Shown here: positions 151 to 33,826 of the stretch, piece by piece | How positions within the stretch are numbered: position 1 is the first letter of the stretch | Layout of the letters: the number at the start of each line of letters is the position of its first letter | Source: Thermoplasmata archaeon | Lineage (GTDB): Archaea; Thermoplasmatota; Thermoplasmata; Thermoplasmatales; Thermoplasmataceae | DNA length: 37,784 bases | Direction of reading: 5' to 3' | NCBI GenBank assembly: GCA_021816965.1 | Contig: JAKAWU010000005.1 | Span: forward strand, 520-38,303 | Program-made: the position numbers and the translations under genes | The notes under the pieces: model-generated | What the model was told of the DNA's origin: nothing | The model's database searches: none | Seen by the model: the letters and a program-made list of their open reading frames with translations, nothing else

Positions 151-1401
151 TCAGAACTGTTCAGACTCTGTAGATTGTGCCATTGCCACAGTGGAACTTT
201 CTGATCCACTTATGATCTGCATCACCTGGTCAAAGTAACCTGTTCCGACGAAACTCTGGTGTTTCAGGGCCCCATAGCCTCTCGGCTCCATTTCCAGTTC
301 CTTCTCCTGCAGCGTAGAATATGCAGCCATCCCATGCTCCCTGTAATTGTCTGCAAGCTCAAACATAGAAAAGTTCAGCGCATGAAATCCTGCAAGCGTG
401 ATAAACTGGAACCTGTATCCCAATTTTCCAAGCTCATCCTGAAACCCCTCAATCTCTTCAGGAGAAAGATGCTTCTTCCAGTTGAATGATGGAGAGCAGT
501 TGTAAGCCAGCAACTTTCCGGGGAATCTCGAATGAACAGACCTTGCAAAATTCCTTGCCTGGTCAATGTCCGGGCTTGAAGTTTCAAACCAGAGCATGTC
601 TGAATAGGGTGCATATGCAAGGCCCCTGCTTATGCATGCTTCCAAGGAACCATCATACTGGTAGAATCCCTCTGCAGTTCTTGAATTTCCTATGAACTCA
701 TGATCCAAAGGATCTATGTCATTGGTGATGAGCTTTGCAGAAAGTGCATCAGTCCTGGCAACTATAACAAGTGGTATACCGAGCACATCTGATGCAAGCC
801 TTGCAGAAACAAGGTTCCTGATGAAGCTTGATACAGGTATGAGGACCTTTCCTCCCAGATGCCCGCATTTCTTTTCAGATGAAAGCTGATCCTCCAGGTG
901 TATGCCTGCAGCACCCGCCTCAATCATGGACTTTGTAAGTTCAAAGACATTCAGTGGCCCCCCAAAACCCGCCTCTGCATCAGCCAATATGGGCACGAAG
1001 CTTTCCTTTTTCACACCGTTCATTGCGCATATGACATCCTCCCTCTGGAAAGCGTTGTTGATCCTCTTTACGAGCATGGGAACGCTGTTGCTCGGATAGA
1101 GGCTCTGATCAGGATATGTATGCCCTGCAAGGTTTGCGTCTGCAGCCACCTGCCACCCGCTCAGGTAAACAGCCTCAAGGCCCGCCCTGACCATCTGCAC
1201 TGCCTGGGTTCCGGTCATGGCCCCAAGTGCTTTGATATAATTCCCTCCATTCATGAGATTCCACAATCTTATGGACATTTTCCTGCTTATGGTGTGCTCA
1301 ACATTCATGCTTCCAGAAATCTTCCTCACATCATCTTCCACGTAGGGCCTCACTATGCCATCCCATCTTCCTTGGGGCAGTGTTTCTCTGTATTCAATCA
1401 C
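151..1401 (-). CDS. aceA: Isocitrate lyase
   Basis: Cleaves isocitrate to glyoxylate and succinate, the first step of the glyoxylate shunt in the cytoplasm. The 416-residue product has the family signature [14 protein letters not shown] with the catalytic cysteine at about residue 179, a metal-binding DAEAGFGGP segment at 141-149, and the conserved stretch [10 protein letters not shown] near 81-90. Length is typical of the compact bacterial/archaeal form. The GTG start overlaps the malate synthase stop (GTGA), and a GGAGG sequence lies about 7 bases upstream, so the two genes form one operon and are probably translationally coupled. Having lyase and synthase together means acetyl-CoA can be used for net carbon gain, for example during growth on acetate, fatty acids or some amino acids. 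Confidence 0.96.
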
Positions 1402-2993
1402 AGGAAACCCTCCTTTTTCAGTATTTCCTCATAAGCAGGAATGGTCAGGAATTCCACGAATTTCTCCCCGAGGACAAGTTCCATAAAAATACTCACTGCT
1501 GCATCCAGATCAGGATTTTTTTCAAGCTTTCCCGCCTCTTCGTAGATGACTTTCTTCACAAAATCCTGGTTGATTTTGATTCCAGACTCAGTGGTTTCAC
1601 CATGCCTGATCCACTGCCAGAGCTGTGCCCTGCAAATTTCAGAAGTTGCAGCATCTTCCATGAGGTTGTAAAGCGGAACAGCACCCTTTCCTCCTATCCA
1701 GGCCTCAAGGTATCTTATTCCAACCCTTACATTGGCCCTCACACCATTCTCCGTGATCCTTCCTTTAACCGGTGCAATTAGATCATCCCTTGAGATGGAA
1801 GTGTTCTTCTTCAGGGAGATCTGGTTTCCTGTTTTCATATGAATATGGAAAGCTTCTCTTGCTACAGGAACAAGTCCAGGATGTGCAACCCATGTCCCGT
1901 CATGCCCGTTCTTCACTTCCCTCTCCTTATCCTCCCTTACCCTGCCCATGGCAATCCTGTTCTCCTCTTCATTTCCTTTCACAGGTATGTATGCGGACAT
2001 TCCACCCATGGCATGAACACCCCTCCTGTGGCATGTGCTGATCAGGAGGTTTGAGTAAGCAAGGAGGAACCCCCTGTCCATTGTAACTTCCGACCTGTCG
2101 GGAAGAACAAAATTCCCGTTTGATCCAAGTTTCTTGATGTAGCTGAAAATATAGTCCCATCTTCCACAGTTCAGGCCCAGAGAATGCTCCCTTGCCTCAT
2201 ACAGTATCTCATCCATCTGGAAAGCTGCAGGAAGAGTCTCAATGAGGAAAGTGGCCTTAATGGTTCCGGGGCTGATCCCCATGTATTTTTCAGAGAAGGA
2301 GAATATACTGTTCCAGAGCCTTGCCTCCAGGTAACTTTCTGTTTTTGGTATGTAAAATGCAGGAATGAGGGATTGTAAAATCATTTCCATTGCATTGTTG
2401 AAGAGAAAAACGCCAAAATCAAAGAATGCTCCGGGCAACGGAACACCATCCACCTTCACATGGAACTCATCAAGGTGCAGCCCCCTTGGCCTGACGAAGA
2501 GTATGGCAGTTTTTTCATTCATGCTGTATGCCTTCCCTTCATCGGAGGTGTATGATAGTTTTTTCCTCACAGCTTTGTAGAGATTCTCCTGTCCTTTCAA
2601 AAGAAGTTCCCAGTATGGCGACTGTGCATCCTCAAAATCAGACATGTAAACGTTGGCCCCTGAATTGAATGCATTTATCACCATCTTTGCATCTGAGGAC
2701 GGGCCTGTTATCTCAACACTTCTGTCATCAAGGTATGCTGGAAAAGGACTTGCCTTCCAGTCACTCTCCCTTATGGATGCAGTTTCTTCAAGGAAATCTG
2801 GCAGAATGCCTTGATCAAGCTTTTCCTGCTCCTTCTTTCTCTGAATGAGAAGCTTATTCCTCTCCTCCGTGAAATTTCTGGAGAGTTCTGATAGAAAAGC
2901 AAGGCATTCCTTACTCAGAAGAATATCTTTGAAGACGTTGGTGCTTGGGGCCACCTGTATATCCGAATTCAATTTCTGATCTGCCATTAGCAT
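1398..2993 (-). CDS. aceB: Malate synthase (A-type)
   Basis: Condenses glyoxylate with acetyl-CoA to malate, completing the glyoxylate shunt. The product is about 531 residues, the size of A-type malate synthases. The family signature [16 protein letters not shown] is intact, preceded by the [15 protein letters not shown] segment. The conserved C-terminal [16 protein letters not shown] region is also present. Possible starts are TTG 2996, ATG 2993 and ATG 2987. ATG 2993 is preferred because a TATA-like TTAAATATA (minus strand, 3013-3021) lies 20-28 bases ahead, as expected for a leaderless mRNA. No ribosome-binding site is seen. First gene of the aceB-aceA operon and divergent from a DNA-binding regulator, which may control it. 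Confidence 0.96.
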
Positions 2994-3100
2994 CAAATAT
3001 ACATACGGTACGTATATTTAATTATATCTATGTGAATAAAAATACAAATGTACATAGATAATAATAAATATGTATTTTACATATTATAGATGAAACTGGT
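2994..3100. promoter_or_regulatory. Divergent promoter region with three inverted repeats
   Basis: This 107-base AT-rich gap separates aceB (minus) from the AbrB-PhoU gene (plus). Three palindromes are visible. The first, at 2998-3016, is a 19-base near-perfect palindrome (TATACATACGGTACGTATA, one mismatched pair). It abuts and partly overlaps the aceB TATA element, between it and the start codon. The second has perfect 9-base arms, TATCTATGT at 3025-3033 and ACATAGATA at 3052-3060. The third has perfect 7-base arms, ATATGTA at 3068-3074 and TACATAT at 3078-3084, 17-33 bases before the plus-strand start. All share a TACATA or close variant core, as expected for repeated binding sites of one dimeric regulator. 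Which protein binds is inferred, not shown. Confidence 0.7.
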
Positions 3101-4099
3101 ATGAAAGATGTAAGGAAGTTGCAGATAACTGCCAATGGAACATACATTGTCACAATTCCCAAGGCATGGGTGGACAGCCTTGGTCTTACTAAAGGCGATC
3201 CACTTAGTCTTTCCTTGCAGGGAAATGAAATATCCATAACTCCAGTCCTTCGGAAACAGCAGAGCATAGAGTCGAGATCAATTTCAGTGGAAGATTTCAC
3301 TGATGCAAGGCTTCTGGAAATGTGCATAACCTCCTCATATGTTGTGGGGAATGACATAATGGAGGTAAAATCAGGGAAGGAATCCGGGCATGAATGGAAA
3401 TCATGGGTCAGGGAATCACTGGATGGCCTTCTCGGGGTTGAGATATCCGAGGAGTATTCCACAAGGATCATGCTTCAGAATCTCATAGATCCTTACAAGT
3501 TCGATCTTGTGGGAGAGTTATCCAAATTCATGAATAATTCCATGGCGGTTCTGTTGGATTCAATTCACGCATCCGGAGATCTTCGTGAAGATCTTGCCAG
3601 TGATGCATTCAGGAGGGGAAAGGAACTGATCAAGTCTTACAGGTTCCTCATGAGGCTCGCGTCTCTTGCATCAAGATCTATTGAACTAAGGGAAAAATAT
3701 GGATTCAAAACCATCCAGAAACTTATGATATCTGTCATAGCCATAAGGGAGATGGGAAGGATATCTTACTATTCAATGAGGACTGCACAGCATGTCACGG
3801 AGATTGGCAACGTTCTGAGCCCTGAGTTTACAGGCCTTCTGGAAAGCATGGCTTCCCACACAGTTGAGATGTCTTTGAAAGCATTTGATTCCCTGAAAGG
3901 AAACGACATCAAGAAAGCATCAGAGGTGCTGGAAATGATGAAAAAAGTCAGGAAGATTTTCGCCCAGATTCATGAGATGGAGAATGACCTTCCAGCACAG
4001 GACAGGTTACCCATGACTCTAATCATAAGGGGGATCAGGGCCATAGCAGGTTACGCGGTGGCCCTTGCTGATGATTCGGTTCTGAACATATATGCATGA
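3101..4099 (+). CDS. AbrB-type DNA-binding protein with PhoU-like domain
   Basis: Residues 1-45 form a SpoVT/AbrB-like swapped-hairpin domain (KLQITANGTYIVTIPKAW then GLTKGDPLSL), a known DNA-binding fold. The remaining 285 residues are mostly helical and rich in charged residues, as in the PhoU helical bundle, with two repeats at roughly 110-215 and 220-320. Archaeal proteins with this layout are usually annotated as phosphate-uptake regulators. No phosphate transporter (pstSCAB) is adjacent, and the gene is divergent from the glyoxylate operon with palindromes between them, so a role in controlling carbon metabolism is possible. The ATG at 3101 is chosen because it begins just before the domain. 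A promoter palindrome close to its own start suggests autoregulation. Family call is firm; the target is inference. Confidence 0.82.
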   Translation: MKDVRKLQITANGTYIVTIPKAWVDSLGLTKGDPLSLSLQGNEISITPVLRKQQSIESRSISVEDFTDARLLEMCITSSYVVGNDIMEVKSGKESGHEWKSWVRESLDGLLGVEISEEYSTRIMLQNLIDPYKFDLVGELSKFMNNSMAVLLDSIHASGDLREDLASDAFRRGKELIKSYRFLMRLASLASRSIELREKYGFKTIQKLMISVIAIREMGRISYYSMRTAQHVTEIGNVLSPEFTGLLESMASHTVEMSLKAFDSLKGNDIKKASEVLEMMKKVRKIFAQIHEMENDLPAQDRLPMTLIIRGIRAIAGYAVALADDSVLNIYA

Positions 4100-4879: not shown

Positions 4880-6388
4880 ATGATCATTGACGGTGAGAGT
4901 CTCGATCTTGACTCTGTCTACAGGGTCTGTTTTCTCGGGGAAAAAGTTGAAATTTCAAATGAGGCAGAGAGGAGAATCAGGGAAGGAAGAGAATCGCTCC
5001 TGAAAATAATTGAAGATGGAAGGACTGTATATGGAGTTAATACAGGTTACGGCAGCCTGCTTAATGTGAAGATCAGCAGGGAAGATTCAGAAAAACTGCA
5101 GCTCAACCTCATAAGGAGCCATTCCAGCGGTTCAGGAAAACCTCTGTCTGTAGAAAAGGTCAGGGCCATGATGCTTGTTAGGGCAAACAGCCTCTGCAGG
5201 GGGTATTCCGGCATATCCACAGATCTTGTAAACAAGATACTTGAAATTCTGAACAGCGGGGCATATCCCTTTGTTCCAGAATATGGCTCAGTGGGGGCCA
5301 GCGGAGACCTTGCGCCACTTGCCCATCTCTGCCTTGCCCTCATTGGAGAAGGGGAGATGATGGTGGATGGCGCGAGAGCAGAAGCATCAACTGTGCTTGG
5401 GAGACTTGGGATAAAGCCATACAGGCTGAGGGAGAAGGAGGCAATCTCATTCATCAATGGAACATCTGCAATCACCGGCATAGGATCAATAGAACTCATA
5501 CGGGCGAAGATGAACCTGTCGCTTGCAGCACTTTCATTCATCCCGGTAATGGAGGCGTTGAAAGGAACATCAAAGGCATTCTCACCATGGGCCCTTGAAA
5601 CAAGAAAACAGAAGGGCCAGATTAAAGTTGGGAGATTGCTGTATGAGGTGCTTCAGGGGAGCCAGAGGATCATAGAACAGGACAGGATCAAGGTTCAGGA
5701 TGCATACACCCTGAGATGCACTCCACAGGTATATGGTGCTGTTCAGGACACCATCAGGTATGTTGAATCTGTTATGGTATCTGAAATGAATTCCACAACA
5801 GACAATCCTCTCATCAAAGGGGAGGAATACATATCATGTGGAAATTTCCATGGAGAGCCTGTTGCACTTGTTTCTGATTTCCTCGCAATCGCCCTTACTG
5901 ATCTTGGAAATATGATAGAAAGAAGGCTTGCAAGGATCACCGACTCATCACTGAGTGGCCTCGATCCGTTTCTTGTAAAGAACAGCGGACTCAATTCAGG
6001 CTTCATGATAGGACAGTATTCAGCTGCTGCACTTTGCAACAGGAACAAGATACTGGCATATCCGGGTTCAGCAGATTCAATTCCAACCTGTGCAAACCAG
6101 GAGGATCATGTGAGCATGGGAGCGAATTCAGCGCTGAAGCTTGAGGAGATTAACACAAACATAAGACGAATCATAGCAACGGAAATGGTCATGGGGGCCC
6201 AGGCAATGGACCTATCACCTGATGGGTACTCAGCCCTTTCAGTCGAACTTCATGATATCATAAGGAAGCATATTGAATATCTTCATGAGGACAGGCCTGT
6301 ATACCGGGACTTTGAAAAAATGGAGATGCTGATGGAATCTGAAGAGTTCAGATCCATGCTGGAAAAAATTGAAGGAATATGGCATTGA
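4880..6388 (+). CDS. hutH: Histidine ammonia-lyase
   Basis: Removes ammonia from L-histidine to give urocanate, the first step of histidine breakdown. The 502-residue product has the Ala-Ser-Gly triad at 140-142 (GASGDLAPLAHL), which cyclises autocatalytically into the MIO electrophile. It also has the catalytic tyrosine in YGVNTGYGSL at 51-60 and the conserved GNFHGEPVAL and NQEDHVSMGANSA segments. Length matches bacterial HutH. Phenylalanine ammonia-lyases share the fold, but the overall pattern fits HutH. No hutU, hutI or formimidoyl-glutamate gene lies within the window, so the rest of the pathway must be elsewhere or absent. It converges on the methyltransferase gene with only 8 bases between stops. 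Confidence 0.94.
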   Translation: MIIDGESLDLDSVYRVCFLGEKVEISNEAERRIREGRESLLKIIEDGRTVYGVNTGYGSLLNVKISREDSEKLQLNLIRSHSSGSGKPLSVEKVRAMMLVRANSLCRGYSGISTDLVNKILEILNSGAYPFVPEYGSVGASGDLAPLAHLCLALIGEGEMMVDGARAEASTVLGRLGIKPYRLREKEAISFINGTSAITGIGSIELIRAKMNLSLAALSFIPVMEALKGTSKAFSPWALETRKQKGQIKVGRLLYEVLQGSQRIIEQDRIKVQDAYTLRCTPQVYGAVQDTIRYVESVMVSEMNSTTDNPLIKGEEYISCGNFHGEPVALVSDFLAIALTDLGNMIERRLARITDSSLSGLDPFLVKNSGLNSGFMIGQYSAAALCNRNKILAYPGSADSIPTCANQEDHVSMGANSALKLEEINTNIRRIIATEMVMGAQAMDLSPDGYSALSVELHDIIRKHIEYLHEDRPVYRDFEKMEMLMESEEFRSMLEKIEGIWH

Positions 6389-10587: not shown

Positions 10588-11334
10588 GTGTTTTATCCAA
10601 GCGTCAATTATGTGAAAAAGATTCATTCTTACATCATAGATAGTTAGGGGGGAATACCAGGAATACTTTCCGAGAGTCTTCTCGAATCCGCCATAGATAG
10701 ACCCAAAACAAAAATAAGTGGATATGAACCTTACTCGGATGTTGTGAGGAAGGCGATTGCTCTGAGCTATGCTATTATATCTTGGCACCCTTTTTTGGAC
10801 GGAAATAAAAGAACTGCCGTTTATATTTTGGGGGATTCTCTTTACACGAACTGGATCAATATTTCAATTCCAGTATATATGGCTAAATACACAATTTCCG
10901 TTGCAATGGGAGAGAACTCTTCGAGACATATGAGCGAGGATGAGTTTTATAAAAAAATATTGCCCCTCTGCTCCAGAAACATTATAGTAAAATTTTTAAA
11001 GGACATTCGATATAAGAACTGGACTATATTTCGGTTTAGAGTGGCTATGAAGTTTGGATATATCATGTTTAACTATCTGAATGATATGGTCAAATCCCAA
11101 AACTCGCGTTCCTCCAAAAAATATTTCCAATACCTTATCAACCATACAAAAAATTTTGAAAACTTGTTCGAGTTTTTATTTTCAAGACCAATAGACTGGT
11201 ACGGAGCTGGAGATTTGAATATTTTCCTTAATAGAATAAGGGAAATAGAAGAAAGGAGAAAACAGGGTTATCCGAAGGAAGATATTTTACCTCCATCCGA
11301 CGAGGAAGGAGACTATATTTCAGATATTTCCTGA
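10588..11334 (+). pseudogene. Fic/Doc-family protein gene interrupted by an amber stop
   Basis: The frame from GTG 10588 reads FYPSVNYVKKIHSYIIDS, then TAG (10645-10647), then GGIPGILSESLLESAIDRPK and further to the Fic core HPFLDGNKRTA. This is the full Doc-like layout: an N-terminal helix, the GG..GI..ESLLESAI segment, then HxFxxGNxxR. Family members usually have a residue such as Tyr before GG, so a single base change to TAG explains the stop. Fic/Doc enzymes transfer AMP or phosphate to target proteins; Doc phosphorylates EF-Tu. About 150 further residues form an unrecognised, aromatic- and Lys-rich C-terminal region. Translation could restart at GTG 10744, but that would lose the N-terminal half of the domain. 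No clear antitoxin is adjacent. Probably inactive. Confidence 0.72.
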
Positions 11335-11354
11335 TTCGTAAACTGTTTTTTCAC
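11324..11354 (+). repeat. 31-base direct repeat, copy 2
   Basis: Identical to 10365-10395. This copy contains the TGA stop of the Fic-type gene at 11332-11334 and ends just before the TATA box of the ribosomal operon. The two copies bound a 959-base unit. Confidence 0.9.
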
Positions 11355-11359
11355 TAAAT

Positions 11360-11373
11360 CTTTATATATAGTT
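11360..11373 (+). promoter_or_regulatory. Promoter of the ribosomal superoperon
   Basis: CTTTATATATAG is the strongest TATA-box match in the window. A start site about 25 bases downstream would fall near 11390, giving a leader of about 95 bases before L3. It lies directly after the 31-base repeat, so the accessory island ends at the edge of this core promoter. Confidence 0.7.
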
Positions 11374-11403
11374 TTACATTCACCTGAAAAGGACCATACA
11401 CTT

Positions 11404-11472
11404 ATGGCAATGCTTCGGCAACCAAAGCCAACGTCTCAATATTTTGAGTTCTATGGCAGGTGTAACGGTTAA
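11404..11472 (+). CDS. Possible 22-codon leader ORF before L3
   Basis: Within the presumed leader an ATG at 11404 opens a 22-codon frame ending NG-TAA at 11470-11472, with MAMLRQPKPTS at its start and YFEFYGRCNG at its end. The stop directly abuts the AGGTGAT ribosome-binding site of L3 at 11473-11479. It may be a leader peptide that couples or attenuates L3 translation, or a chance ORF within a structured leader. The short pair GGC (11407-11409) with GCC might help fold the leader. No homology is recalled. Confidence 0.35.
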   Translation: MAMLRQPKPTSQYFEFYGRCNG

Positions 11473-11484
11473 AGGTGATAAAGA

Positions 11485-12474
11485 ATGTCTACGCCACATC
11501 ATCCCAGAAGGGGATCTATTGGATACTATCATAGAAAGAGAAAGCCCGGTCTAAAATCCAGCATCCGCAGTTGGCCTGAGATTGAAGGAAATCCCAAGAT
11601 TCAGTCCTTTGCAGGATATAAAGTTGGAATGACCCATGTTGAAATGGTCGACTACAGGAAGGCCAGCACGACTGCAGGAAGGAACATAATGGCAGCAGTT
11701 ACTGTTGTGGAAGTTCCTCCTGCGAAAGTAGTTGCCATGAGAGGTTACAGGGAATCGGAGGACGGGCTGAGAATTGCTTACGAGAAATGGGCAGATAACC
11801 TCGATAAGAGTATATTCAAGGTCATACTTGAGTCAAAGGAGAGAAAGGAAAGTGCAGTTCCTGACGATATATGTGAAGTCAGGGTCATAATGATGGTCAC
11901 GCCTGAGGAGATAACAGGTGTTCCAAAGAAGGTACCCGAACTCTACGAAACAAGAGTTGGTGGGTCCAATATCGAAGCAAGGCTCAAATATGCACAGGAC
12001 AAGCTTGGAAAGGAAGTATTATTCACTGATTTCTCAAAGACTGGAAATTTTGTCGATGTTATTTCAGTCACTAAAGGTAAAGGTTTTACGGGCCACGTTG
12101 AAAGATTCGGTGTCAAGCTGCTTCCAAAGAAAAACAGGAAACACAGAAGAATGATCGGTACACTTGGCCCATGGCATCCAGACTGGGTGAGATGGCAGGT
12201 ACCACAGGCAGGACAGATGGGTTCACACCAGAGGACACAGCATAATATGAGAGTTTTAAAATATGCAAAATCACAGGGAAATGATGACATAAATGTTAAG
12301 GGCGGATTTGTCAACTATGGTCTCGTAAGAACAAATTATGTTCTGGTTCATGGTTCAATTCCAGGTTCCATAAAGAGGCTTATAAAGTTCAGGGACCCTG
12401 CCAGACAGAAATCACCATCTGTGGACAACATACAGCTTGCATACGTCTCAAGAGAATCAAAGCAGGGTGATTAA
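11485..12474 (+). CDS. rpl3p: Large subunit ribosomal protein L3 (uL3)
   Basis: 329 residues, the archaeal/eukaryotic-size L3. It starts HHPRRGSIGYYHRKR and contains GYKVGMTHV, the SVTKGKGFTGHVERFGV loop that reaches toward the peptidyl-transferase centre, and HPDWVRWQVPQAGQMGSHQRT. It is an early assembly protein binding 23S rRNA. First gene of the superoperon. ATG 11485 is supported by AGGTGAT with a 5-base spacer. Two bases separate it from L4. Confidence 0.98.
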   Translation: MSTPHHPRRGSIGYYHRKRKPGLKSSIRSWPEIEGNPKIQSFAGYKVGMTHVEMVDYRKASTTAGRNIMAAVTVVEVPPAKVVAMRGYRESEDGLRIAYEKWADNLDKSIFKVILESKERKESAVPDDICEVRVIMMVTPEEITGVPKKVPELYETRVGGSNIEARLKYAQDKLGKEVLFTDFSKTGNFVDVISVTKGKGFTGHVERFGVKLLPKKNRKHRRMIGTLGPWHPDWVRWQVPQAGQMGSHQRTQHNMRVLKYAKSQGNDDINVKGGFVNYGLVRTNYVLVHGSIPGSIKRLIKFRDPARQKSPSVDNIQLAYVSRESKQGD

Positions 12475-12476
12475 AA

Positions 12477-13235
12477 ATGAAGACGCAGATATATTCAACA
12501 AACGGAGAAAACAAGGGCGAGATAGATATCCCTGAAGTTTTCAATGCACAGATCAGGGATGACATTCTGAAGAAAGCTTTCAGGATCATTTCTCTTTCAA
12601 ACAGGCATCCATATGGTTCTTCCCCACTGGCAGGAACAAGAAGGGTTGGAGCAACATCAAGGCCGGGAATGGGAATTTCAAGAATGCCAAGGGTTGCCGG
12701 AAGCTCAAGGGCAGTCCAGCTCGGTAGCACAAAGGGAGGAAGAAGTCCTCACTCACCAAGATCCACTAAGAATCTTATACTTAGGATAAACAAGAAGGAA
12801 AAAGCCATCGCATGGAAATCAGCACTGGCAATGACGGCAGACCCGGAGGCTGTAAAGATCAGGGGACATGTATTCAGGCAGGATCTTTCATTCCCCATTG
12901 TGGTTGAAGATGAGATGGATAGTATAGATAAATCAAGAGATGCAATGGTTTTCCTTCAGTCCATAGGCGTATGGGATGATGTGGAGAGATCCAAGAATGG
13001 AACAAAGATCAGGGCAGGAAGAGGAAAGATGAGGAACAGGAGATACAGGACACCAAAAAGCCTGCTCATTGTCACTGAAAATCCTGCAAAGCTGAAAGCA
13101 TTCAGGTCATTCTCAGGAATAGATGTTGCATACTCAGACAACATATCCATATCCAAACTGGCTCCAGGAGGAGTTGGAGGAAGACTGGTAATCTATACGG
13201 AATCAGCCTTCAAGAAAATAGGGGGTGTACAGTGA
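12477..13235 (+). CDS. rpl4p: Large subunit ribosomal protein L4 (uL4)
   Basis: 252 residues in archaeal L4 (L1e) form. The conserved loop GTRRVGATSRPGMGISRMPR lines the exit tunnel, and the segment MRNRRYRTPKSLLIV is typical of the family. A GGTGA lies before the ATG, inside the L3 end. Its TGA stop shares bases with the L23 ATG (TGATG), which suggests coupled translation. Confidence 0.97.
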   Translation: MKTQIYSTNGENKGEIDIPEVFNAQIRDDILKKAFRIISLSNRHPYGSSPLAGTRRVGATSRPGMGISRMPRVAGSSRAVQLGSTKGGRSPHSPRSTKNLILRINKKEKAIAWKSALAMTADPEAVKIRGHVFRQDLSFPIVVEDEMDSIDKSRDAMVFLQSIGVWDDVERSKNGTKIRAGRGKMRNRRYRTPKSLLIVTENPAKLKAFRSFSGIDVAYSDNISISKLAPGGVGGRLVIYTESAFKKIGGVQ

Positions 13236-13483
13236 TGGATTACATAATATCACCAGTAGCAACAGAAAAAACCATGATAAACGGGCAGAAGGAGAACAAG
13301 CTCACATTCATAGTTAGAAGGGAGGCAACAAGAGATGCCGTTGCACAGGAAGTTGAGAGAAGGTTCGACGTGAAGGTTGTTCGGGTGAACATAATGATCA
13401 CGAAGAAGGGAAAGAAAGCAATAGTGAAACTTTCCGAGAAATACAATGCAGAGGAAATAGGGGAGAGAATAGGAATATATTGA
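13235..13483 (+). CDS. rpl23p: Large subunit ribosomal protein L23 (uL23)
   Basis: 82 residues, normal archaeal length. Begins MDYIISPVATEKTM, the hallmark of the family, and ends near an AEEIGERIGIY tail. It sits at the tunnel exit and forms part of the docking site for SRP and the Sec translocon. ATG 13235 is preferred over GTG 13232 because it gives the usual N-terminus and overlaps the L4 stop as TGATG. Confidence 0.97.
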   Translation: MDYIISPVATEKTMINGQKENKLTFIVRREATRDAVAQEVERRFDVKVVRVNIMITKKGKKAIVKLSEKYNAEEIGERIGIY

Positions 13484-13493
13484 GGTGCAGTAA

Positions 13494-14189
13494 ATGGGTA
13501 AGCGTATAATTCCACAGAGAAGAGGAAAAGGAGGGCTGACATACAGGAGTCCGAGCCACAGGCATGTTGCCCCCATGAGAATACCATCAGATGGTACATA
13601 CACAGTAAGGGACATAATTCATGCACCGGGAAGAACCGGGCCCGTTCTTGTATTATCAGACGGAAATGGAAAAAAGGAATATCAGATAGCATTCAACGGA
13701 GCCTTTGTTGATCAGAAGATAACTGTTGGCAAAGTTGACAGCGCAAATACAGGGGACTCAACATATCTTGGCCTCATACCGGACGGCTCGTTGGTGTACA
13801 ATATTGAGACCGTTCCCGGAGACGGAGGAAAACTTTGCAGAACAGCAGGTTCTGCTGCACAGGTAATAAGCCATGGTGAAATGGTTTCAGTCAAGCTTCC
13901 ATCAGGTGCCATAAAATCCATACACCCCCAGTGCAGGGCCTCAGTGGGCTATGTTGCAGGGGCAGGAGCAAAGGATATACCTATCCTGAAGGCAGGAAGG
14001 AGAGTCCACTATTACCAGAGCAAGGCAAAGAGACCATTCAGTGTCAGGGGAGTAGCAATGAACGCAATCAACCACCCCCATGGAGGAGGTAACCACCAGC
14101 ATGTGGGAAGGGCAAGCACAGTTGGAAGGGGAACACCGCCGGGCAGGAAGGTAGGGCGTCTCTCACCGCAGAGGAGGAAGGTTAAATGA
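13494..14189 (+). CDS. rpl2p: Large subunit ribosomal protein L2 (uL2)
   Basis: 231 residues. Opens [13 protein letters not shown] and contains RAGVGYV-like [14 protein letters not shown] and the C-terminal [20 protein letters not shown] loop with the histidine needed for peptidyl transfer support. It holds domain IV of 23S rRNA at the subunit interface. GAGGTG lies 6 bases before the ATG. The stop overlaps the S19 ATG. Confidence 0.98.
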
Positions 14190-14641
14190 CCACTAACAGA
14201 CAGGCATCAGCAAAATCCATAAGAAGAAGATCAAGAAAATCGCAGAAGGTAGCACTGGGAAGATCAAAGGAATTCAAGTTCAAGGGGCTCACCCTTGAAG
14301 AACTCCAGAACCTGGACAGGGACGCTCTCCTTAAGGTTCTTCCTGCAAGGGCAAGAAGAAGTATGAAAAGAGAAATGGGCCCTGACCAGAAGATACTCCT
14401 GAGAAGACTCATAAAAACAAACAGGGAACTCAAGACTCATGTCAGGGACATGATCATACTTCCGAAATTTGTTGGAAAAATAGTTCAGGTTCATAATGGA
14501 AAGGAATACGTCAAATTTGAGATAAAAGCAGAGATGATAGGCCACTATCTTGGAGAATTTGCACTCACAAGAAAAGGTGTAAAACATTCAGGACCTGGTG
14601 TGGGAGCCACAAGATCGTCAAAGTTCATGCCATTGAAGTGA
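14186..14641 (+). CDS. rps19p: Small subunit ribosomal protein S19 (uS19)
   Basis: 151 residues; the longer archaeal/eukaryotic S15e-like form, with a basic N-terminal extension (RRRSRKSQK) and the conserved core [20 protein letters not shown] and [13 protein letters not shown], ending [14 protein letters not shown]. It binds the head of the 30S near the A-site tRNA. ATGA overlap with L2 and an upstream GGAGG set the start. Confidence 0.97.
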
Positions 14642-14647
14642 TGTGAA

Positions 14648-15100
14648 ATGAAAGGATATTCAATAGAAGAAATACCGGAAAAAACCGCAATTGCGTTAAA
14701 GAAGAACTGCAATATATCCGTGAAGGACTCGGTCAATGTTGCACACAACATCAGGGGCATGATGCTTTCGGATGCAGTGGATTTCCTCAACCTTGTACTG
14801 AAGAAGGAAAAGCCTGTGAAATATTTCAGGTATCTTGATTCAGTATCTCACAGGAAGGGGGCAGGGCCCGGAAGATATCCGGTGAAGGCTTGCAAGAGTT
14901 TCCTGCAGCTTCTTGAAAATGTGGAGTCAAATGCAGAATTCAAGGGCCTGAATACAGACTCTCTCAGGATTCTGCACATCACGGCAGACAAGGGAACAAT
15001 GCTGAAGAGATACACGCCAAAGGCATACGGAAGGGCAGGGGCGAACAACAGGGACATGGTCAATCTTGCAGTGGTAGTCAAAGAGGTCGAGGAAGAATGA
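14648..15100 (+). CDS. rpl22p: Large subunit ribosomal protein L22 (uL22)
   Basis: 150 residues, archaeal L22/L17e form. The conserved hook region is [14 protein letters not shown], and the hairpin that lines the exit tunnel is carried by the [17 protein letters not shown] segment, followed by the typical strand [13 protein letters not shown]. Six bases follow the S19 stop; the stop overlaps the S3 start. Confidence 0.97.
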
Positions 15101-15759
15101 AGGAAAGAAAGTTCATCAACGAGAACATAAAAAGGCTTCTCGTATTAGAATATATCATGAAAGAGACTGACAACGCTGGATTTGGCGGAATGGAAATGAA
15201 GAGAAACCTTCTGGACACATCCATAAGGCTCACAGTGAACAAGCCTGGGCTTGTAATAGGAAGAAGAGGTTCAAAGGTTCAGGAAATTGAGGAAACACTG
15301 AAGAACAGATTTCACATTGAAGCTCCAAGAATCGAAGTCATGGAGGTCAAGAATCCAGATCTCAATCCTCAGATAGTGTCTAAGAAGATTGCGATGTCGC
15401 TTGAAAAGGGATGGGCATACAGGAAGGCAGGCAACACAGCGCTCAGAAGAATTATTGAAAGCAACGCCAGGGGCGTTATGATCAGGATAGGCGGAAAAAT
15501 ATCTGGAGAAAGGGCAAGGTCCCAGAAATTCTTCTACGGTTCAATAAAATATTCAGGAGAACCTGCAAGGTCAGGAATTGGATACGGGTACTCTGTTGCA
15601 AAGCTCAAGCTTGGAGCAATAGGCGTCACCGTAAGGATACTCAACCGTGACTACAGACTTCCGGATGATATTACAGTAAGGAAGGAAAACTTGAAAAGAG
15701 AGGTGAAAACAGATGTCGGAACTGAAAGCAAAGTCCTTGAGAACAATGAGCAGAACTGA
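15097..15759 (+). CDS. rps3p: Small subunit ribosomal protein S3 (uS3)
   Basis: 220 residues. The KH domain [16 protein letters not shown] (about 51-66) contains the GxxG loop, and the C-terminal half has [20 protein letters not shown]. It forms the mRNA entry site with S4e/S5 neighbours. The ATG overlaps the L22 stop. The last 47 bases of the gene also encode the start of L29 in another frame. Confidence 0.97.
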
Positions 15760-15919
15760 GAGGGATGAGAGGATGAAGGAACTTCAGGAATCACTTCTGA
15801 AGCAGAGAGCTAGTGTGGCCATGGGAGGCGCACCGCTTAACCCGGGTCTTATAAAATCACTGAGAAGGCAGATAGCCAGAATAGAAACAGTAAACCATTT
15901 GGAGGAAACAAAAAAATGA
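15713..15919 (+). CDS. rpl29p: Large subunit ribosomal protein L29 (uL29)
   Basis: 68 residues with the whole family pattern: [10 protein letters not shown] at the N-terminus, [20 protein letters not shown] and [10 protein letters not shown] at the C-terminus. Start 15713 lies 47 bases inside S3 but is supported by AGAGGTGA about 7 bases upstream and by the conserved N-terminus; the later ATG 15746 would cut it off. It sits at the tunnel exit beside L23. The stop overlaps the aIF1 ATG. Confidence 0.94.
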
Positions 15920-16218
15920 AGGATAAGAATTTCACCGGTATTCCAAAAGAACTACAGCCATGGGATGGTTTCACCAGAGACACCCAGGCTGTGAAGATAA
16001 CTGTGGATAAGAGAAGATATGGTAAGAATGTAACAATAATCGAAGGCATCGATCCAAAACTGGAAAACGTTGACGATATTGCCAAATTGCTCAAGAAGAA
16101 GGTGGCATCAGGCGGAACAGTGAAGGATGGAAGAACCATAGAACTTCAGGGAGACCATAGGGATACGGTGAGGAAATACCTCGAAGAGATGGGATTTAGG
16201 ACAGAGGTCGTGGGTTGA
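15916..16218 (+). CDS. sui1: Translation initiation factor aIF1 (SUI1)
   Basis: 100 residues with the SUI1 fold: RRYGKNVTIIEGID, then KKVASGGTVKDGRTIELQGD, the basic loop and strand that contact the 30S P site. The factor checks start-codon pairing during initiation. In archaea it is regularly found here between L29 and Rpp29. Overlaps L29 by ATGA, and its TGA overlaps the next ATG. Confidence 0.95.
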   Translation: MKDKNFTGIPKELQPWDGFTRDTQAVKITVDKRRYGKNVTIIEGIDPKLENVDDIAKLLKKKVASGGTVKDGRTIELQGDHRDTVRKYLEEMGFRTEVVG

Positions 16219-16505
16219 TGTTTGAACTGGTGAGTGCTGAATATTTGGGAAAAAGGATAGAGGTTGTTGAATCTTCAATGACAGGCTTGAAGGGCATATA
16301 TGGAACGGTCACGGGCGAATCAAAAAATATGTTTCGCATCAGGACAGATAAAGGTGAGATAAACGTTCCAAAGAAGGTATGCCTCTTCTCCATAAAAATG
16401 GATTCCGGATATTTCAGGATTCACGGAAAATTCATATGTCTCAGGCCCGAGAACAGATTGAAAGATGCAGAAAGAATACTGAAGAACATGAAGAAGGTGA
16501 ACTAA
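16218..16505 (+). CDS. rnp1: RNase P protein component 1 (Rpp29/POP4)
   Basis: 95 residues with the Sm-like barrel of archaeal Rpp29 (GLKGIYGTVTGESKNMFRIR then INVPKKVCLFSI, and later IHGKFICLRPENRLKD). It binds the specificity domain of RNase P RNA together with Rpp21 and takes part in tRNA 5' maturation. ATG 16218 is chosen over TTG 16215 because it shares TGATG with the aIF1 stop. Confidence 0.94.
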   Translation: MFELVSAEYLGKRIEVVESSMTGLKGIYGTVTGESKNMFRIRTDKGEINVPKKVCLFSIKMDSGYFRIHGKFICLRPENRLKDAERILKNMKKVN

Positions 16506-16508
16506 TTG

Positions 16509-16832
16509 GTGATAAACATAGGATTTGATATACCGGTTCCAGAGAAAGAATGCCATGACAAGAAATGTCCATTCCACTCAGGACTCAGTGTAAGGGGAAG
16601 AATGCAGAGAGTTAAGGTGGTATCAACCGGCATGATAAACAGTGCGGTTGTACAGAGAGAATTCAGAAGATTCAACAAGAAATACGAGAGATATACAAAG
16701 AGCATATCAAAATATCATGTGCATCTCCCGGAGTGCATTGAAGTGAACAACGGAGATGAGGTAATCATGGTTGAATGCAGGAAACTGTCAAAAACAGTTT
16801 CACATGTCATAATCGGGAGGGTTCCGAAATGA
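16509..16832 (+). CDS. rps17p: Small subunit ribosomal protein S17 (uS17)
   Basis: About 107 residues, archaeal S17/S11e form with the N-terminal block INIGFDIPVPEKECHDKKCP, SVRGRMQRVKVVSTGM and the KYHVHLPECIEVNNGDEVIM core. It contacts h11 of 16S rRNA. The start is unusual: either GTG 16509 or TTG 16506, with an AGGTGA upstream spaced 8 or 5 bases. There is no ATG candidate. The stop overlaps the L14 ATG. Confidence 0.95.
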   Translation: MINIGFDIPVPEKECHDKKCPFHSGLSVRGRMQRVKVVSTGMINSAVVQREFRRFNKKYERYTKSISKYHVHLPECIEVNNGDEVIMVECRKLSKTVSHVIIGRVPK

Positions 16833-17227
16833 AAGGCATAGCAGGCAGACAGAGCAGGGGGCTTCCACTCGGGGCAGTAGTGCCATGCGCTGACAACAGT
16901 GGCGCAAAGATGATCAGCCTCATAGATGTAAAGGCATATCACGGTGTTGCAAGGAGGGTTCCTGCAGCAGGCGTTGGAGACATGTTCATAGCAAGTGTCA
17001 AGAAAGGTGGCCCCGAAATGAGGGCAAAAGTGGTCTACGCAGTCATCATAAGGCAGAGGAGGCCATACAGGAGAGCTGACGGTTCACTGATATCCTTCGA
17101 GGAGAATGCAGCAGTTCTCGTGACACCTGAAGGCGAGGTAAGAGGATCTGAGATCAAGGGGCCAGTTGCAAGGGAAGCAGCAGAGAGATGGCCAAGGATA
17201 GCTGCCATAGCATCCACTATAGTTTAA
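16829..17227 (+). CDS. rpl14p: Large subunit ribosomal protein L14 (uL14)
   Basis: 132 residues, the archaeal size. Contains GAVVPCADNSGAKMI, VARRVPAAGVGDMFIASVK and a C-terminal GPVAREAAERWPRIA. It forms intersubunit bridges and is the docking site for RsfS/aIF6-type factors. The ATG at 16829 overlaps the S17 stop (ATGA) and follows a GGGAGG; longer upstream readings lack conservation. Confidence 0.97.
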   Translation: MKGIAGRQSRGLPLGAVVPCADNSGAKMISLIDVKAYHGVARRVPAAGVGDMFIASVKKGGPEMRAKVVYAVIIRQRRPYRRADGSLISFEENAAVLVTPEGEVRGSEIKGPVAREAAERWPRIAAIASTIV

Positions 17228-17238
17228 AGGTGAAAAGG

Positions 17239-17727
17239 ATGATCAACAAGGTTAAGGTAACACTTTCCAAAGAACTCAGGCATAAACTGGGAATAAGGCA
17301 TTTCCCCATATCCAGGGGAGACATGGTAAAGGTAGTCAAGGGAAACAGGAAAAACGAGGGCGGAAAAGTATCATCAGTAGACCACAGGCATGGAATGGTG
17401 GTCATTGACGGCATCAACATGGCCAAGGCGGACGGAAAGGAAAAAGCATATCCAATTGCACCAGAGAAGATCGTAATCACAAAACTTGATTTCACGCTGC
17501 CTGAGAGAGAGGAAATGCTCAAGGCGATGGCAGCAAGAAAGAATATACAACTTTCAGAAGAGGACATAAAGGAAACAATGGTTGAACCCACACCTGAGCC
17601 ACTTCCTGAAGAGGATGCAGCAGAACAGGTGGATGAAACATCGGAAGAGGACGTTTCTGAACTGGAATCTGAAGAATCAAGTGAGGAATCGGATCAGGAG
17701 GAGGAAGAAAATGATAACAAAGAGTAA
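17239..17727 (+). CDS. rpl24p: Large subunit ribosomal protein L24 (uL24) with acidic tail
   Basis: The first 110 or so residues are a normal archaeal L24 (L26e): GIRHFPISRGDMVKVVKGN, the KOW motif around EGGKVSSVDHRHGMVVIDGI, and YPIAPEKIVITKLD. L24 is an assembly initiator near the tunnel exit. The last 50 residues (about 113-162) are unusual: mostly Glu, Asp and Ser (PEPLPEEDAAEQVDETSEED and further ESEESSEESDQEEEENDNKE). Start ATG 17239 has AGGTGA upstream; a longer reading from 17188 is not conserved. The tail end overlaps the S4e start by 17 bases. Confidence 0.95.
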   Translation: MINKVKVTLSKELRHKLGIRHFPISRGDMVKVVKGNRKNEGGKVSSVDHRHGMVVIDGINMAKADGKEKAYPIAPEKIVITKLDFTLPEREEMLKAMAARKNIQLSEEDIKETMVEPTPEPLPEEDAAEQVDETSEEDVSELESEESSEESDQEEEENDNKE

Positions 17728-18418
17728 AAGAGACATGCTCCCAAGAGTTGTCAAGATACCAAGGAAGGAGTACTTCTGGGGTGTTTCAGCGACACCTGGT
17801 GGACACAGGAAGGATCAGTCATTGCCAATGCTTCACCTGCTAAGGGATTATCTTTCAGTTGGAGACAAGGAGAGGGAGATATCAAGAATACTTACCAAGG
17901 GACTTGTACAGCTGGATGGGAAGGTCATAAAGGAGAAGAGAAGGGGCATTGGATTTATGGATGTAGTTTCACTGCCATCCATAAAGAAACAGTACAGGAT
18001 CATATATGACAAGCTTGGAAGGCTTGTTCCCGTGGAGGAGACAGAGGAAGGAAGCAAGCTCAAGCCAAGAAAGGTGGTCAACAAGGTCACGGTCAAGGGA
18101 GGAAAATCCATGCTTGTGTTCCATGACGGGACAAACAAGGTTTCCGATCTGGACGTTGAGACGGGAGACGTCGCAGTTTTCGATCTTGCTGGCAACTCAA
18201 TAAAAAATGTGATTAAACTCAAGGAAGGAATGAAGGTATTCCTCACAGGCGGGAACCATGTCGGTACAATCGCTACTGTGAAGGATGTGGAGGTCAGCAG
18301 ATCCTCTGCCTCAAATCTGGTACACACAGAGGAAGGCTTTGCAACCGTGGAAGAATACGTGTTCCCCACAGGCAATATGGCAATCAACTTTGCAGATATC
18401 AAAGGAGGCGTTAACTGA
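17711..18418 (+). CDS. rps4e: Small subunit ribosomal protein S4e
   Basis: 235 residues, with the S4e layout of an S4-like RNA-binding domain, a central domain and a KOW motif. Landmarks are KIPRKEYFWGVSATPGGHRK, the S4-type LTKGLVQLDGKVIKEKRRGIG, and KVFLTGGNHVGTIATVKDV. S4e is found only in archaea and eukaryotes. ATG 17711 is set by GGAGG seven bases ahead and by the conserved start; the open frame extends further upstream inside L24 but is not coding there. The stop overlaps the L5 ATG. Confidence 0.96.
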   Translation: MITKSKRDMLPRVVKIPRKEYFWGVSATPGGHRKDQSLPMLHLLRDYLSVGDKEREISRILTKGLVQLDGKVIKEKRRGIGFMDVVSLPSIKKQYRIIYDKLGRLVPVEETEEGSKLKPRKVVNKVTVKGGKSMLVFHDGTNKVSDLDVETGDVAVFDLAGNSIKNVIKLKEGMKVFLTGGNHVGTIATVKDVEVSRSSASNLVHTEEGFATVEEYVFPTGNMAINFADIKGGVN

Positions 18419-18972
18419 TGCCGAGAGCAAAAGCACAGAAGCAGGTACAGAAGAAACCGGGTAACCCTATGCAGGAAATAGTGATGGACAAGGTAGTCAT
18501 CAACATTGGAGTAGGGCAGGCAGGAGAAAGGCTCAACAAGGCCATGAAAGTCATAGAGATGCTCACAGGGCACAAACCTGTGATGACAGTTTCAAAGAAA
18601 ACATACAGGGAATTCAACGTTAGGAAAGGCCTAACCATTGGTGCAAAGGTAACACTCAGGAAGAAGGATGCATATGAATTCCTGGAGAAGGCATTCTATG
18701 CAAAGGTAAACAAGTTCCCGTCATACTCCATAGACAAGCAGGGAAATGCTTACTTCGGAATATCCGATTACACAGAGTTCAAGGGATTGAAATATGATCC
18801 TGAAATAGGAATTTTTGGAATGGATGTGGCCATTGTCCTGAAGAAGAAGGGTGGCTACAGAAATGCAAAAAGGAAGATCAGGAGAGAATCTCTTCCGGAG
18901 AAACTCATCATAAAGAAAGAGGAAACACTTGACTTTCTCAGGCAGAATTTCAAGGTTGAGGTGGTAAATTAA
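18418..18972 (+). CDS. rpl5p: Large subunit ribosomal protein L5 (uL5)
   Basis: 184 residues. Contains [40 protein letters not shown] and a typical [19 protein letters not shown] strand-loop. It carries part of the 5S RNP and contacts the P-site tRNA. A basic N-terminal extension of about 18 residues precedes the core. Overlaps S4e by one base and ends in TAATG with S14. Confidence 0.97.
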
Positions 18973-19133
18973 TGTCAAACATAGTTCTCAGACCGAAGAA
19001 AAATTTCGGCAGGACAAACGGATGCGTGAGATGCGGAAGGAAGAGAGGAATGGTAAGGAGATACGGCATTAGAATGTGCAGGCAGTGCTTCAGGGAGACT
19101 GCCCCTGCCATAGGCTTCAAGAAATACAGTTAG
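18972..19133 (+). CDS. rps14p: Small subunit ribosomal protein S14 (uS14, zinc form)
   Basis: A 53-codon gene. The product begins [20 protein letters not shown] and has two zinc-binding CxxC pairs (CVRC at 18-21 and CRQC at 36-39), then [11 protein letters not shown] at the C-terminus, as in archaeal S14/S29e. It is a 30S head protein. The ATG shares its A with the L5 TAA, and the stop is followed by AGGTGG and the S8 ATG. Confidence 0.96.
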
Positions 19134-19141
19134 GTGGTAAA

Positions 19142-19531
19142 ATGAGACACGATCCTTTAAATGATATTATAGTATCAATAAAAAATGCATCCAACATAGG
19201 GCAGAGCGAGATAGTCATCGGGCCAGCTGCAAGGATGATCGGAAAAGTCCTGAAGGTCATGCAGGAGTACAACTACCTGAAAAGCTTCGAGATAATCGAG
19301 GACGGGAAGGGCGGCAAGTTCAGGATAAATCTGAACACCACGATCAACAACTGCGGCATCATAAAGCCAAGATTTGCAGTGAAGAAAATCAACCTTGACA
19401 GGTTTGAATCAAGATACCTGCCTGCACAGGATTTCGGAATACTCATTGTCACAACGACAAAGGGAATAATGAGCCATGTGGAGGCAAGAAAGCTGGGCCT
19501 TGGAGGAAAGCTTCTGGCTTACATATATTGA
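19142..19531 (+). CDS. rps8p: Small subunit ribosomal protein S8 (uS8)
   Basis: 129 residues. Shows HDPLNDIIVSIKNA at the start, the IIKPRFAVKK strand and a C-terminal GILIVTTTKGIMSHVEARK, the segment that binds the central domain of 16S rRNA. The start at 19142 is fixed by AGGTGG upstream; a longer frame from 19076 lies within S14. Confidence 0.97.
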   Translation: MRHDPLNDIIVSIKNASNIGQSEIVIGPAARMIGKVLKVMQEYNYLKSFEIIEDGKGGKFRINLNTTINNCGIIKPRFAVKKINLDRFESRYLPAQDFGILIVTTTKGIMSHVEARKLGLGGKLLAYIY

Positions 19532-19541
19532 GGTGAAGGAA

Positions 19542-20084
19542 ATGGTTAAATGGGAACAGAGAGAGAAAATCGAGATACCATCAGGGGTTTCAGCTGAAGC
19601 TTCCAATGGCACTTTCACTTTCAAGGGGAAACTTGGAAAAACAAGCAGGACACTTCTGGACAACTATGTGAAGGTGGAGCTTGAAAATAAGGCCATCACC
19701 CTGAGCATATCAAAAGTGAACAGATATACAAAAGGCATAGTGGGAACATGGGCATCCGAGCTCAGGAACTGCATCAGCGGTGTCCAGGAAGGATTCACCT
19801 ATGCGATGAAGGTTGATTACACGCACTTCCCCACAAGGGTTTCAGTGAAAGGCGGAAAGGTTGTGGTGGAGAACTTCCTTGGGGAGAGAAGCCACAGGGA
19901 AGCAGAAATCGTTGGCGACACAAAGGTTTCAATAAAAGGAGACAGGCTCACATTAACTGGAATAGATAAGAGACACATCGGAGAGACATGCGCTAATATT
20001 GAGAGATCTACCAAAATAAAGGGCTTTGATCTCAGGATATTTCAGGATGGAATATTTCCGGTTGAAGTGGAGGACGAGGAATAA
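19542..20084 (+). CDS. rpl6p: Large subunit ribosomal protein L6 (uL6)
   Basis: 180 residues, archaeal L6/L9e size. Two L6 repeats are visible: [20 protein letters not shown] in the first and [20 protein letters not shown] in the second, followed by [19 protein letters not shown]. It binds near the GTPase centre. Start ATG 19542 has GAGGTGAAGG upstream; the earlier frame inside S8 is rejected. Confidence 0.97.
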
Positions 20085-20491
20085 TGAATACAATAAAACC
20101 TCATCTTGGGAAAGAAGAGAAGAAACTCCTGAAGATGAAGAACAAAATGGCAAGGAAGAGGGTACAGTTCAGGAGACAGGAATGGTTCAGGTACAAGAAG
20201 TTTGGAGAAGAATGGAGAAAACCAAGAGGCAAGCATTCAAAGCTCAGGGAACATCTTTCAAGAAGGCCTCCAGTTGTTGACGCAGGATACAGGGGCCCGG
20301 CACAGGTCAGGGGACTCCATCCATCCGGATTCAGGGAAGTGCTCGTACATAACATGAAAGAACTGGAATCCATAGACAACAGGTTTCAGGCATGCAGGAT
20401 AGCTTCCACAGTTGGAAGGAAGAAGAGGATCGAACTGGAATCAGAGGCTGACAAGCTTGGGATTAGAGTGTTGAACAGGACGGTGAGCTGA
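20084..20491 (+). CDS. rpl32e: Large subunit ribosomal protein L32e (eL32)
   Basis: 135 residues. Contains the family core [34 protein letters not shown] and [11 protein letters not shown]. Archaeal and eukaryotic only. The archaeal block L6-L32e-L19e-L18 replaces the simpler bacterial order. Overlaps L6 (TAATG) and L19e (TGATG-like) by one base each. Confidence 0.97.
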
Positions 20492-20940
20492 TGAGAATTG
20501 AGACGGCAAAGAGAATTGCCGCAGATGAATTCAAGTCGGGAATATCAAGAGTCTGGATCGACACGAACAGCCTGGAACTCATAAGGGACGCTGCAACAAG
20601 GGATGACATAAGGGGCCTCGTGGAGAGGAACGTCATTCAGGTGAAGCAGAAGAAGGGAAATTCCAATTCAAGACTGAAGAAAAGGATCAAGCAGCTCTCA
20701 AAGGAGAGAAGGCGCGGACCCGGTTCAGTGAAGGGAACAAGAAACACAAGATTCCCGAGAAAGAGAAGATGGATCAAGACCATCAGGGCTCTCAGGGACG
20801 AACTCAGGATATTGAATGAAGAGGGGAAAATAGATCAAAAAACATACAGGAAGTACTACAGGATCATAAAAGGCGGCACAATCAAGTCAAGGGCACAGCT
20901 TAGGTCCCAACTTAAGATAGCAGGACTTCTGGGTGAATAA
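20491..20940 (+). CDS. rpl19e: Large subunit ribosomal protein L19e (eL19)
   Basis: 149 residues. Starts with a short helical domain (AKRIAADEFKSGISRVWID), then the highly basic central stretch KERRRGPGSVKGTRNTRFPR typical of L19e, and a C-terminal helix. It forms an intersubunit bridge in archaea and eukaryotes. Start ATG overlaps the L32e TGA. Confidence 0.97.
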   Translation: MRIETAKRIAADEFKSGISRVWIDTNSLELIRDAATRDDIRGLVERNVIQVKQKKGNSNSRLKKRIKQLSKERRRGPGSVKGTRNTRFPRKRRWIKTIRALRDELRILNEEGKIDQKTYRKYYRIIKGGTIKSRAQLRSQLKIAGLLGE

Positions 20941-20941
20941 A

Positions 20942-21427
20942 ATGAAGACACCAGCAATATTGAAAAGAAAGAAAATGGGAGTCACGGATTACAGGAAGAG
21001 GCTTAGCCTTCTCAGGTCCGAATCCACAAGGCTCATCATAAGGCCATCCGGAAAAGGAATAGTTGTACAGGTAGCGGACTTTGCCCAGGAAGGAGATATC
21101 ATACTGGCTACTGTTAACGCAAATATACTGAAGAAAACGCTTGGCATATCTGGAAATAACTCACAGATATCATACATTTCAGGTTATTATCTTGGAATGA
21201 AGGCTCTTTCAAAGGGTGTTGAATACGCAGTGGTTGACACGGGCAGATTCAAGCTCACAAGAGGCGGAAGGATTTCATGCGCCATAAAAGGTGCAGTGGA
21301 TGCAGGCCTTGAGATCAATGTATCGGAAGAAATATTCCCTCCAAAGGACAGGCTGGAAGGAAAGCATCTAAAAAACCCTGTTGACGTCGATGAAATAAAG
21401 AAATCCATAATAGAGAAGGTGAAGTAG
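20942..21427 (+). CDS. rpl18p: Large subunit ribosomal protein L18 (uL18)
   Basis: 161 residues, somewhat shorter than many archaeal L18 proteins. Core motifs are DYRKRLSLLRSESTRLIIRP and the VDTGRFKLTRGGRISCAIKG region; part of the 5S RNA binding complex with L5. ATG 20942 is favoured because GGGTGA lies 5 bases upstream; the GTG at 20933 is inside that site. Confidence 0.95.
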   Translation: MKTPAILKRKKMGVTDYRKRLSLLRSESTRLIIRPSGKGIVVQVADFAQEGDIILATVNANILKKTLGISGNNSQISYISGYYLGMKALSKGVEYAVVDTGRFKLTRGGRISCAIKGAVDAGLEINVSEEIFPPKDRLEGKHLKNPVDVDEIKKSIIEKVK

Positions 21428-21428
21428 A

Positions 21429-22996: not shown

Positions 22997-23018
22997 GTCC
23001 ACCGGCGTTCCGGTGGCA

Positions 23019-24740: not shown

Positions 24741-24741
24741 T

Positions 24742-33723: not shown

Positions 33724-33826
33724 CCAAAGTTTTTCCAATATAAGTAATGGTATTTTTCTTCAGAAAATAAAACGCAAAACTGTTTCATATGTTAAAGCAT
33801 TTATCTCTTATGGGCATATAGGTCAC

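Follow-up and report, generated by a model that had tools for sequence, protein, structure and literature searches.

A candidate AbrB-PhoU regulator of glyoxylate shunt genes and its predicted half-site operators in Thermoplasmata

In enterobacteria the glyoxylate operon aceBAK is repressed by IclR; glyoxylate releases this repression and pyruvate stabilises it (PMC11323563). An archaeal aceB-aceA pair is represented by the ace operon of Haloferax volcanii, as cited in PMC7746861, and no transcriptional regulator of this operon was found in the papers searched. In the Thermoplasmatales organism 'E-plasma' glyoxylate shunt genes were noted and a lateral origin was suspected, with no mention of a PhoU-type protein (PMC10354927). 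Fusions of SpoVT/AbrB and PhoU domains are known from annotation; one of them, TK2245 of Thermococcus, is listed among chromosome-associated proteins (PMC7325993). The open-licence papers searched contained neither a target, operator, binding site or glyoxylate role of any AbrB-PhoU fusion nor a described equivalent of an AbrB-PhoU glyoxylate regulator.

We analysed a stretch of 37.8 kb (hereafter the window; contig C7, 520-38303) from the 1.36-Mb assembly, in 77 contigs, of an acid-loving Thermoplasmata archaeon (genome G000). The aceB gene (1398-2987, minus strand) encodes malate synthase A (MS) of 529 aa (TIGR01344, 702 bits against a cut-off of 594.5), and aceA (151-1401, minus strand) encodes an isocitrate lyase (ICL) of 416 aa (NF011645, 668 bits against 562), in which the alignment shows the catalytic KKCGH loop. 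Since the end of aceB and the beginning of aceA share 4 bases, the two genes are assigned to one operon (2987-151, minus strand). The gene at 3101-4099 on the plus strand encodes a protein of 332 aa with an AbrB/MazE domain and a PhoU fold. Thus the coordinates and the Pfam and NCBIfam matches bear out the original prediction of an AbrB-PhoU gene divergent from aceB-aceA.

The AbrB/MazE/SpoVT DNA-binding domain (residues 10-49; 3128-3247, plus strand) matches the MazE_antitoxin profile PF04014 with 38.1 bits against 24.7 (E=1.5e-9), and the PhoU profile PF01895 is matched with 24.5 bits against 23.5 (E=3.6e-5). Secondary structure and fold search place the PhoU-like helical domain at residues 136-331 (3506-4093, plus strand). 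The AlphaFold2 model has a mean pLDDT of 86; the helical domain is confident, whereas values drop to about 57-72 in the AbrB part. The closest PDB folds of the model are bacterial PhoU proteins, the best being 1xwm with a TM score of 0.81 by target. The MazE and PhoU domains were the only matches in this protein, with no winged helix or effector domain of the IclR type.

Of 117 genomes of the order, 11 contain an ortholog of the regulator (E<1e-78), and exactly these 11 also have ICL (E<1e-180) and MS (E<1e-200), the genes being always adjacent and divergent. The set is spread patchily over four genera: the own genus contributes 2 of its 12 genomes, and the three others contribute all or most of theirs. 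The closest named record of the regulator is from Thermoplasmata archaeon YP4.bin8 (76% identity), and a search of genome contigs for related loci returned one close relative only. A class-wide search yielded six further orthologs with about 39% identity in another family of the class, f18. Five of these six face a gene for a diverged enzyme (28-41% identical), ICL-like in G478 and G498 and MS-like in G473, G484 and G409; in G493, the remaining genome, a contig end interrupts the neighbourhood. In G478 and G498 we noticed by eye a conserved small ORF between the regulator and the ICL-like gene (L075 7200-7351 and L080 615-776, respectively), which has about 51 codons and a TTG start, ends in ...FWERMI and overlaps the next start. 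In other families of the class and phylum having aceB-aceA pairs, no AbrB-PhoU gene was observed in the fetched flanks, which covered about 1.5 kb upstream of the aceB or MS loci where the contig allowed.

The 16 ICL/MS-linked regulators, 11 from the order and five from f18 (G493 included, the truncated G498 left out), form one clade apart from 20 ordinary AbrB-PhoU proteins, with support 100/100. The PhoU metal-ligand motif (E-R-x-x-D-H and its partners) has been substituted throughout the clade (16 of 16): E219, D223, H224, D173 and D321 (own numbering) become G, Y, Y, G and A, and the further positions E/Q186, E/D310 and E324 of the ordinary proteins become L, R and D/E. The positions R181, R220, Y223, Y224, R227, H231, E234, R310 and R313 are invariant in the clade, whose members have in common an invariant signature of the GRxxYYxMRxAQH / RDIR type. 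On the other hand, the ligand residues are kept in 25 of 25 other AbrB-PhoU proteins, 20 of 20 from the order and 5 of 5 from elsewhere in the phylum. The proteins L101-L105 from elsewhere in the phylum (26-28% identity) keep the PhoU ligands and were set aside.

These replacements bear on the phosphate link through the PhoU domain that had been suggested initially. The domain could sense phosphate or talk to a transporter and so tie the phosphate status to the glyoxylate shunt, and both the Pfam PhoU match and the PhoU fold are consistent with this. So is the ordinary AbrB-PhoU gene in L105, which lies beside pstB-like and phoU(-like) genes (named by eye), a layout that fits a phosphate role for the relatives keeping the ligands. 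However, the loss of the metal-ligand residues throughout the clade argues against phosphate sensing, and no phosphate gene was seen among the scanned neighbours, comprising part of the ORFs of the window. A phosphate response is thus very unlikely here.

The gap between aceB and the regulator gene has 21% GC. Three palindromes with TACATA-like cores had been described in it, and the inverted repeats are indeed present, the description of the cores being correct in substance. The first has arms of 12 nt with one mismatch (2995-3006/3008-3019; P=0.022), the middle one perfect arms of 9 nt at a distance of 18 nt (3025-3033/3052-3060; P=0.193), and the third perfect arms of 8 nt (3067-3074/3078-3085; P=0.072), where all probabilities are from dinucleotide shuffles of the gap. 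The middle palindrome is at the chance level, and all three repeats are weak or modest as palindromes. The first and the third contain a more specific unit, TAYRTA-N3-TAYRTA, in which 9 bp separate the starts of the two half-sites and which is found at 3000-3014 and again at 3069-3083; the word TAYRTA is itself a pseudo-palindrome. We therefore ruled out the three palindromes as a binding unit, since the middle one is at the chance level and the other two are explained by the spaced half-sites.

The pattern TAYRTA-N3-TAYRTA has three matches in the entire 1.36-Mb genome: two are in the gap, and the third is a TATATA run elsewhere. Within the window, the two gap sites are the only exact matches, and three matches with at most one mismatch were observed against 0.34 expected. 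Shuffling the gap together with the first codons gives 0.011 expected pairs at 9 bp, compared to the two observed. The putative operator of the aceB promoter, TACATA-CGG-TACGTA (3000-3014), directly adjoins the aceB TATA-like box (3015-3021), which reads TTAAATA in the minus-strand direction. The putative operator of the regulator promoter, TATGTA-TTT-TACATA (3069-3083), has an equivalent in all 16 orthologous gaps and follows the TATA-like box TAATAAA (3062-3068, plus strand). An additional half-site TACATA (3051-3056) lies 18 bp, that is, two 9-bp steps, before the latter operator, and is also found in G051 and G090. At both promoters the putative operator directly follows the TATA-like box and extends into the region where transcription is expected to start.

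The 9-bp pair precedes the regulator gene in 16 of 16 readable gaps, exactly in 12 of them, including all five f18 gaps, and with one changed half-site base in four. This set includes the gap of G498, where the protein is truncated, and leaves out that of G493, cut off by the contig end. Thus conservation in relatives, named in the original prediction as a check, holds for the half-site pair and fails for the middle palindrome. In the other ten gaps of the order there are six exact pairs that are not TATATA, against 0.025 expected from dinucleotide shuffles. Among spacings from 6 to 21 bp in the 11 gaps of the order, pairs of non-TATATA half-sites occur eight times at 9 bp, five times at 18 bp (in 5 of the 11 gaps), once at 8 bp and at no other distance. 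In G409 and G484 the regulator promoter is the only genome-wide match to the pair, and in G473 it is the only non-TATATA match. The operator is always upstream of the regulator start, its end being 27-39 nt (order) or 44-57 nt (f18) from the arginine codon of the RKLQ motif.

DNA as AT-rich as this gap is rich in TAYRTA-like words, and the half-sites could be mere promoter elements or products of chance. However, the composition was controlled by the dinucleotide shuffles, the 9/18-bp register and the genome-wide rarity are not features of promoters, and none of the genome-wide matches listed is at the paralogous AbrB-PhoU genes of G000, G048, G051 and G069. We consider this explanation hardly credible. 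Nevertheless, TAYRTA here lies inside AT-rich promoter DNA, and its conservation may partly reflect the constraint on the TATA box.

A wider regulon was considered and rejected: the extra TAYRTA-N3-TAYRTA matches in G051, G069, G089, G090 and G091 mostly fall inside ORFs or precede genes of unrelated kinds, and they have no target in common. In f18, a second operator match TACGTACAATATGTA is identical in G478 (L087 4113-4127) and G498 (L088 188-202). The G478 copy is situated some 75 bp upstream of the gene MRTVLVRPSNSRGSLYLTKMGFLPVPVG..., which resembles a gene near the G493 regulator (L079 3203-4834). It is possible that this match marks a second target in the family.

On the aceB side, the full exact 9-bp pair is present only in the own genome among the 11 gaps of the order. 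In eight of the other ten, one half-site adjoins the TATA-like box (TATA positions assigned by eye), and G085 and G086 have none there, also by eye. Counting the own gap, 9 of 11 thus have a half-site directly after the TATA-like box of aceB (by eye), and in 7 of 11 it is 24-25 nt from the start codon. Since the pair on this side is full only in the own genome, direct control of aceB seems less conserved than autoregulation. One could even suppose that the regulator controls only itself, and that its vicinity to aceBA reflects linked inheritance of a three-gene cassette, aceB being free of direct control. This would agree with the regulator-side operator being kept in 16 of 16 gaps and with the suggestion that 'E-plasma' acquired ICL and MS laterally (PMC10354927). 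However, the own gap contains two perfect operators, 7 of 11 gaps keep a half-site at a fixed distance near the TATA-like box of aceB, and another family shows the linkage again with enzymes that have diverged strongly. Self-regulation alone is accordingly improbable in our judgement.

Taken together, these results make it likely that the product of 3101-4099 is a transcription factor dedicated to the glyoxylate shunt and subject to autoregulation, acting as a local repressor of aceBA and of itself. Comparative sequence analysis supports the ligand loss and gives good support to the linkage and the operator; from these we infer DNA binding at these sites, repression as its sign, and the effector. 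The AbrB domain would bind the paired TAYRTA half-sites 9 bp apart, directly downstream of both TATA-like boxes, and the bound regulator would block recruitment of RNA polymerase at aceBA and at its own gene. The PhoU-fold domain, having lost the metal/phosphate ligands, is the likely signal domain for a metabolite of the glyoxylate pathway, which would release the repression. Glyoxylate is our favoured guess for the effector, because it is the sole compound linking ICL alone, MS alone and both together.

Repression is expected because both operators are just downstream of TATA-like boxes, and a position downstream of TATA is typical of archaeal repressors. AbrB-type proteins can act both ways, and the sites are between two divergent start regions, so that an activator switching aceBA on in the presence of the effector may be considered. 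However, archaeal activators usually bind upstream of BRE/TATA, whereas both operators here lie over the expected start region, in a blocking position. We thus find activation rather unlikely and retain the repressor as the preferred reading. The original proposal of a repressor of aceB-aceA and itself stands as far as a dedicated regulator is concerned (11/11 linkage, recurrence in f18, operator in 16/16 gaps), with repression as the probable sign.

The partners of the regulator in f18 have decayed. The ICL-like proteins lack the catalytic KKCGH loop. In the MS-like proteins the conserved D of NCGRWDY, a Mg ligand in malate synthases, is missing, and in two of the three the D of the EDAAT motif is altered as well. 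Neither a further ICL nor a further MS was found in the f18 genomes having an ICL-like or MS-like partner. To judge from these replacements, the partner enzymes look catalytically dead, and therefore the regulator does not seem always to serve a working shunt. The regulator and its operator thus seem to outlive the enzyme activity, a hint at a sensing or partner role. Only tentatively, and with more doubt than belief, we suggest that the PhoU domain has turned into an organic-acid sensor of the glyoxylate pathway, the f18 pseudo-enzymes being kept as a ligand-sensing or protein-protein partner.

Several observations concern the wider surroundings. The same contig contains the gene of NADP isocitrate dehydrogenase, the competing branch enzyme of the shunt (33827-35035, within 32809-35035). 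The gene before it has weak matches to Lrp/LysM-type regulators, and no operator match was observed in the region 32809-35035. Downstream of the regulator there is a histidine ammonia-lyase gene (4880-6388), and an ORF of equal length, 502 aa, occupies the matching place in G051 (L063 2991-4499). Over 10744-28269, about 20 ORFs of the plus strand follow one another closely in a long series. In the own genome, a distance of about 3 kb separates the ordinary AbrB-PhoU paralog and a citrate synthase gene (L062 5551-6516 and 9450-10598).

The paired signals, kept in every checkable relative that has the regulator, point to a purpose-built pathway switch, apparently of a kind not described before. 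This provides a concrete candidate, with a predicted operator and sites, for how archaea control the glyoxylate shunt at the level of transcription. For AbrB-PhoU fusions, a common type of protein in the archaeal genomes searched, it also offers a regulon handle. The PhoU domain devoid of metal-ligand residues makes the signal of archaeal PhoU-domain regulators directly testable.

The regulator has the same two-domain architecture as the archaeal SpoVT/AbrB-PhoU fusions, with about 330 aa, and the relatives examined likewise begin with RK[LIV]Q at the N-terminus. Unlike the other fusions, the present clade is separate (100/100), has no ERxxDH ligands and is tied to ICL and MS genes. With bacterial PhoU (1xwm, 1t72, 1sum) it shares the helical-bundle fold (TM 0.65-0.82 by target), but it is only 13-18% identical, has lost the metal-ligand motif, carries a fused DNA-binding domain and has no Pst partner among the scanned neighbours. 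The AbrB-fold protein MraZ binds spaced direct repeats TGGGN at about 10 bp; in both cases short half-sites form arrays with a spacing near one helical turn, here TAYRTA at 9 bp. In outline the predicted system resembles that of IclR, a local repressor of a glyoxylate operon. However, IclR consists of a winged helix and an IclR effector domain, whereas the regulator described here combines AbrB with PhoU and is an unrelated protein, so that the analogy is one of function and not of family.
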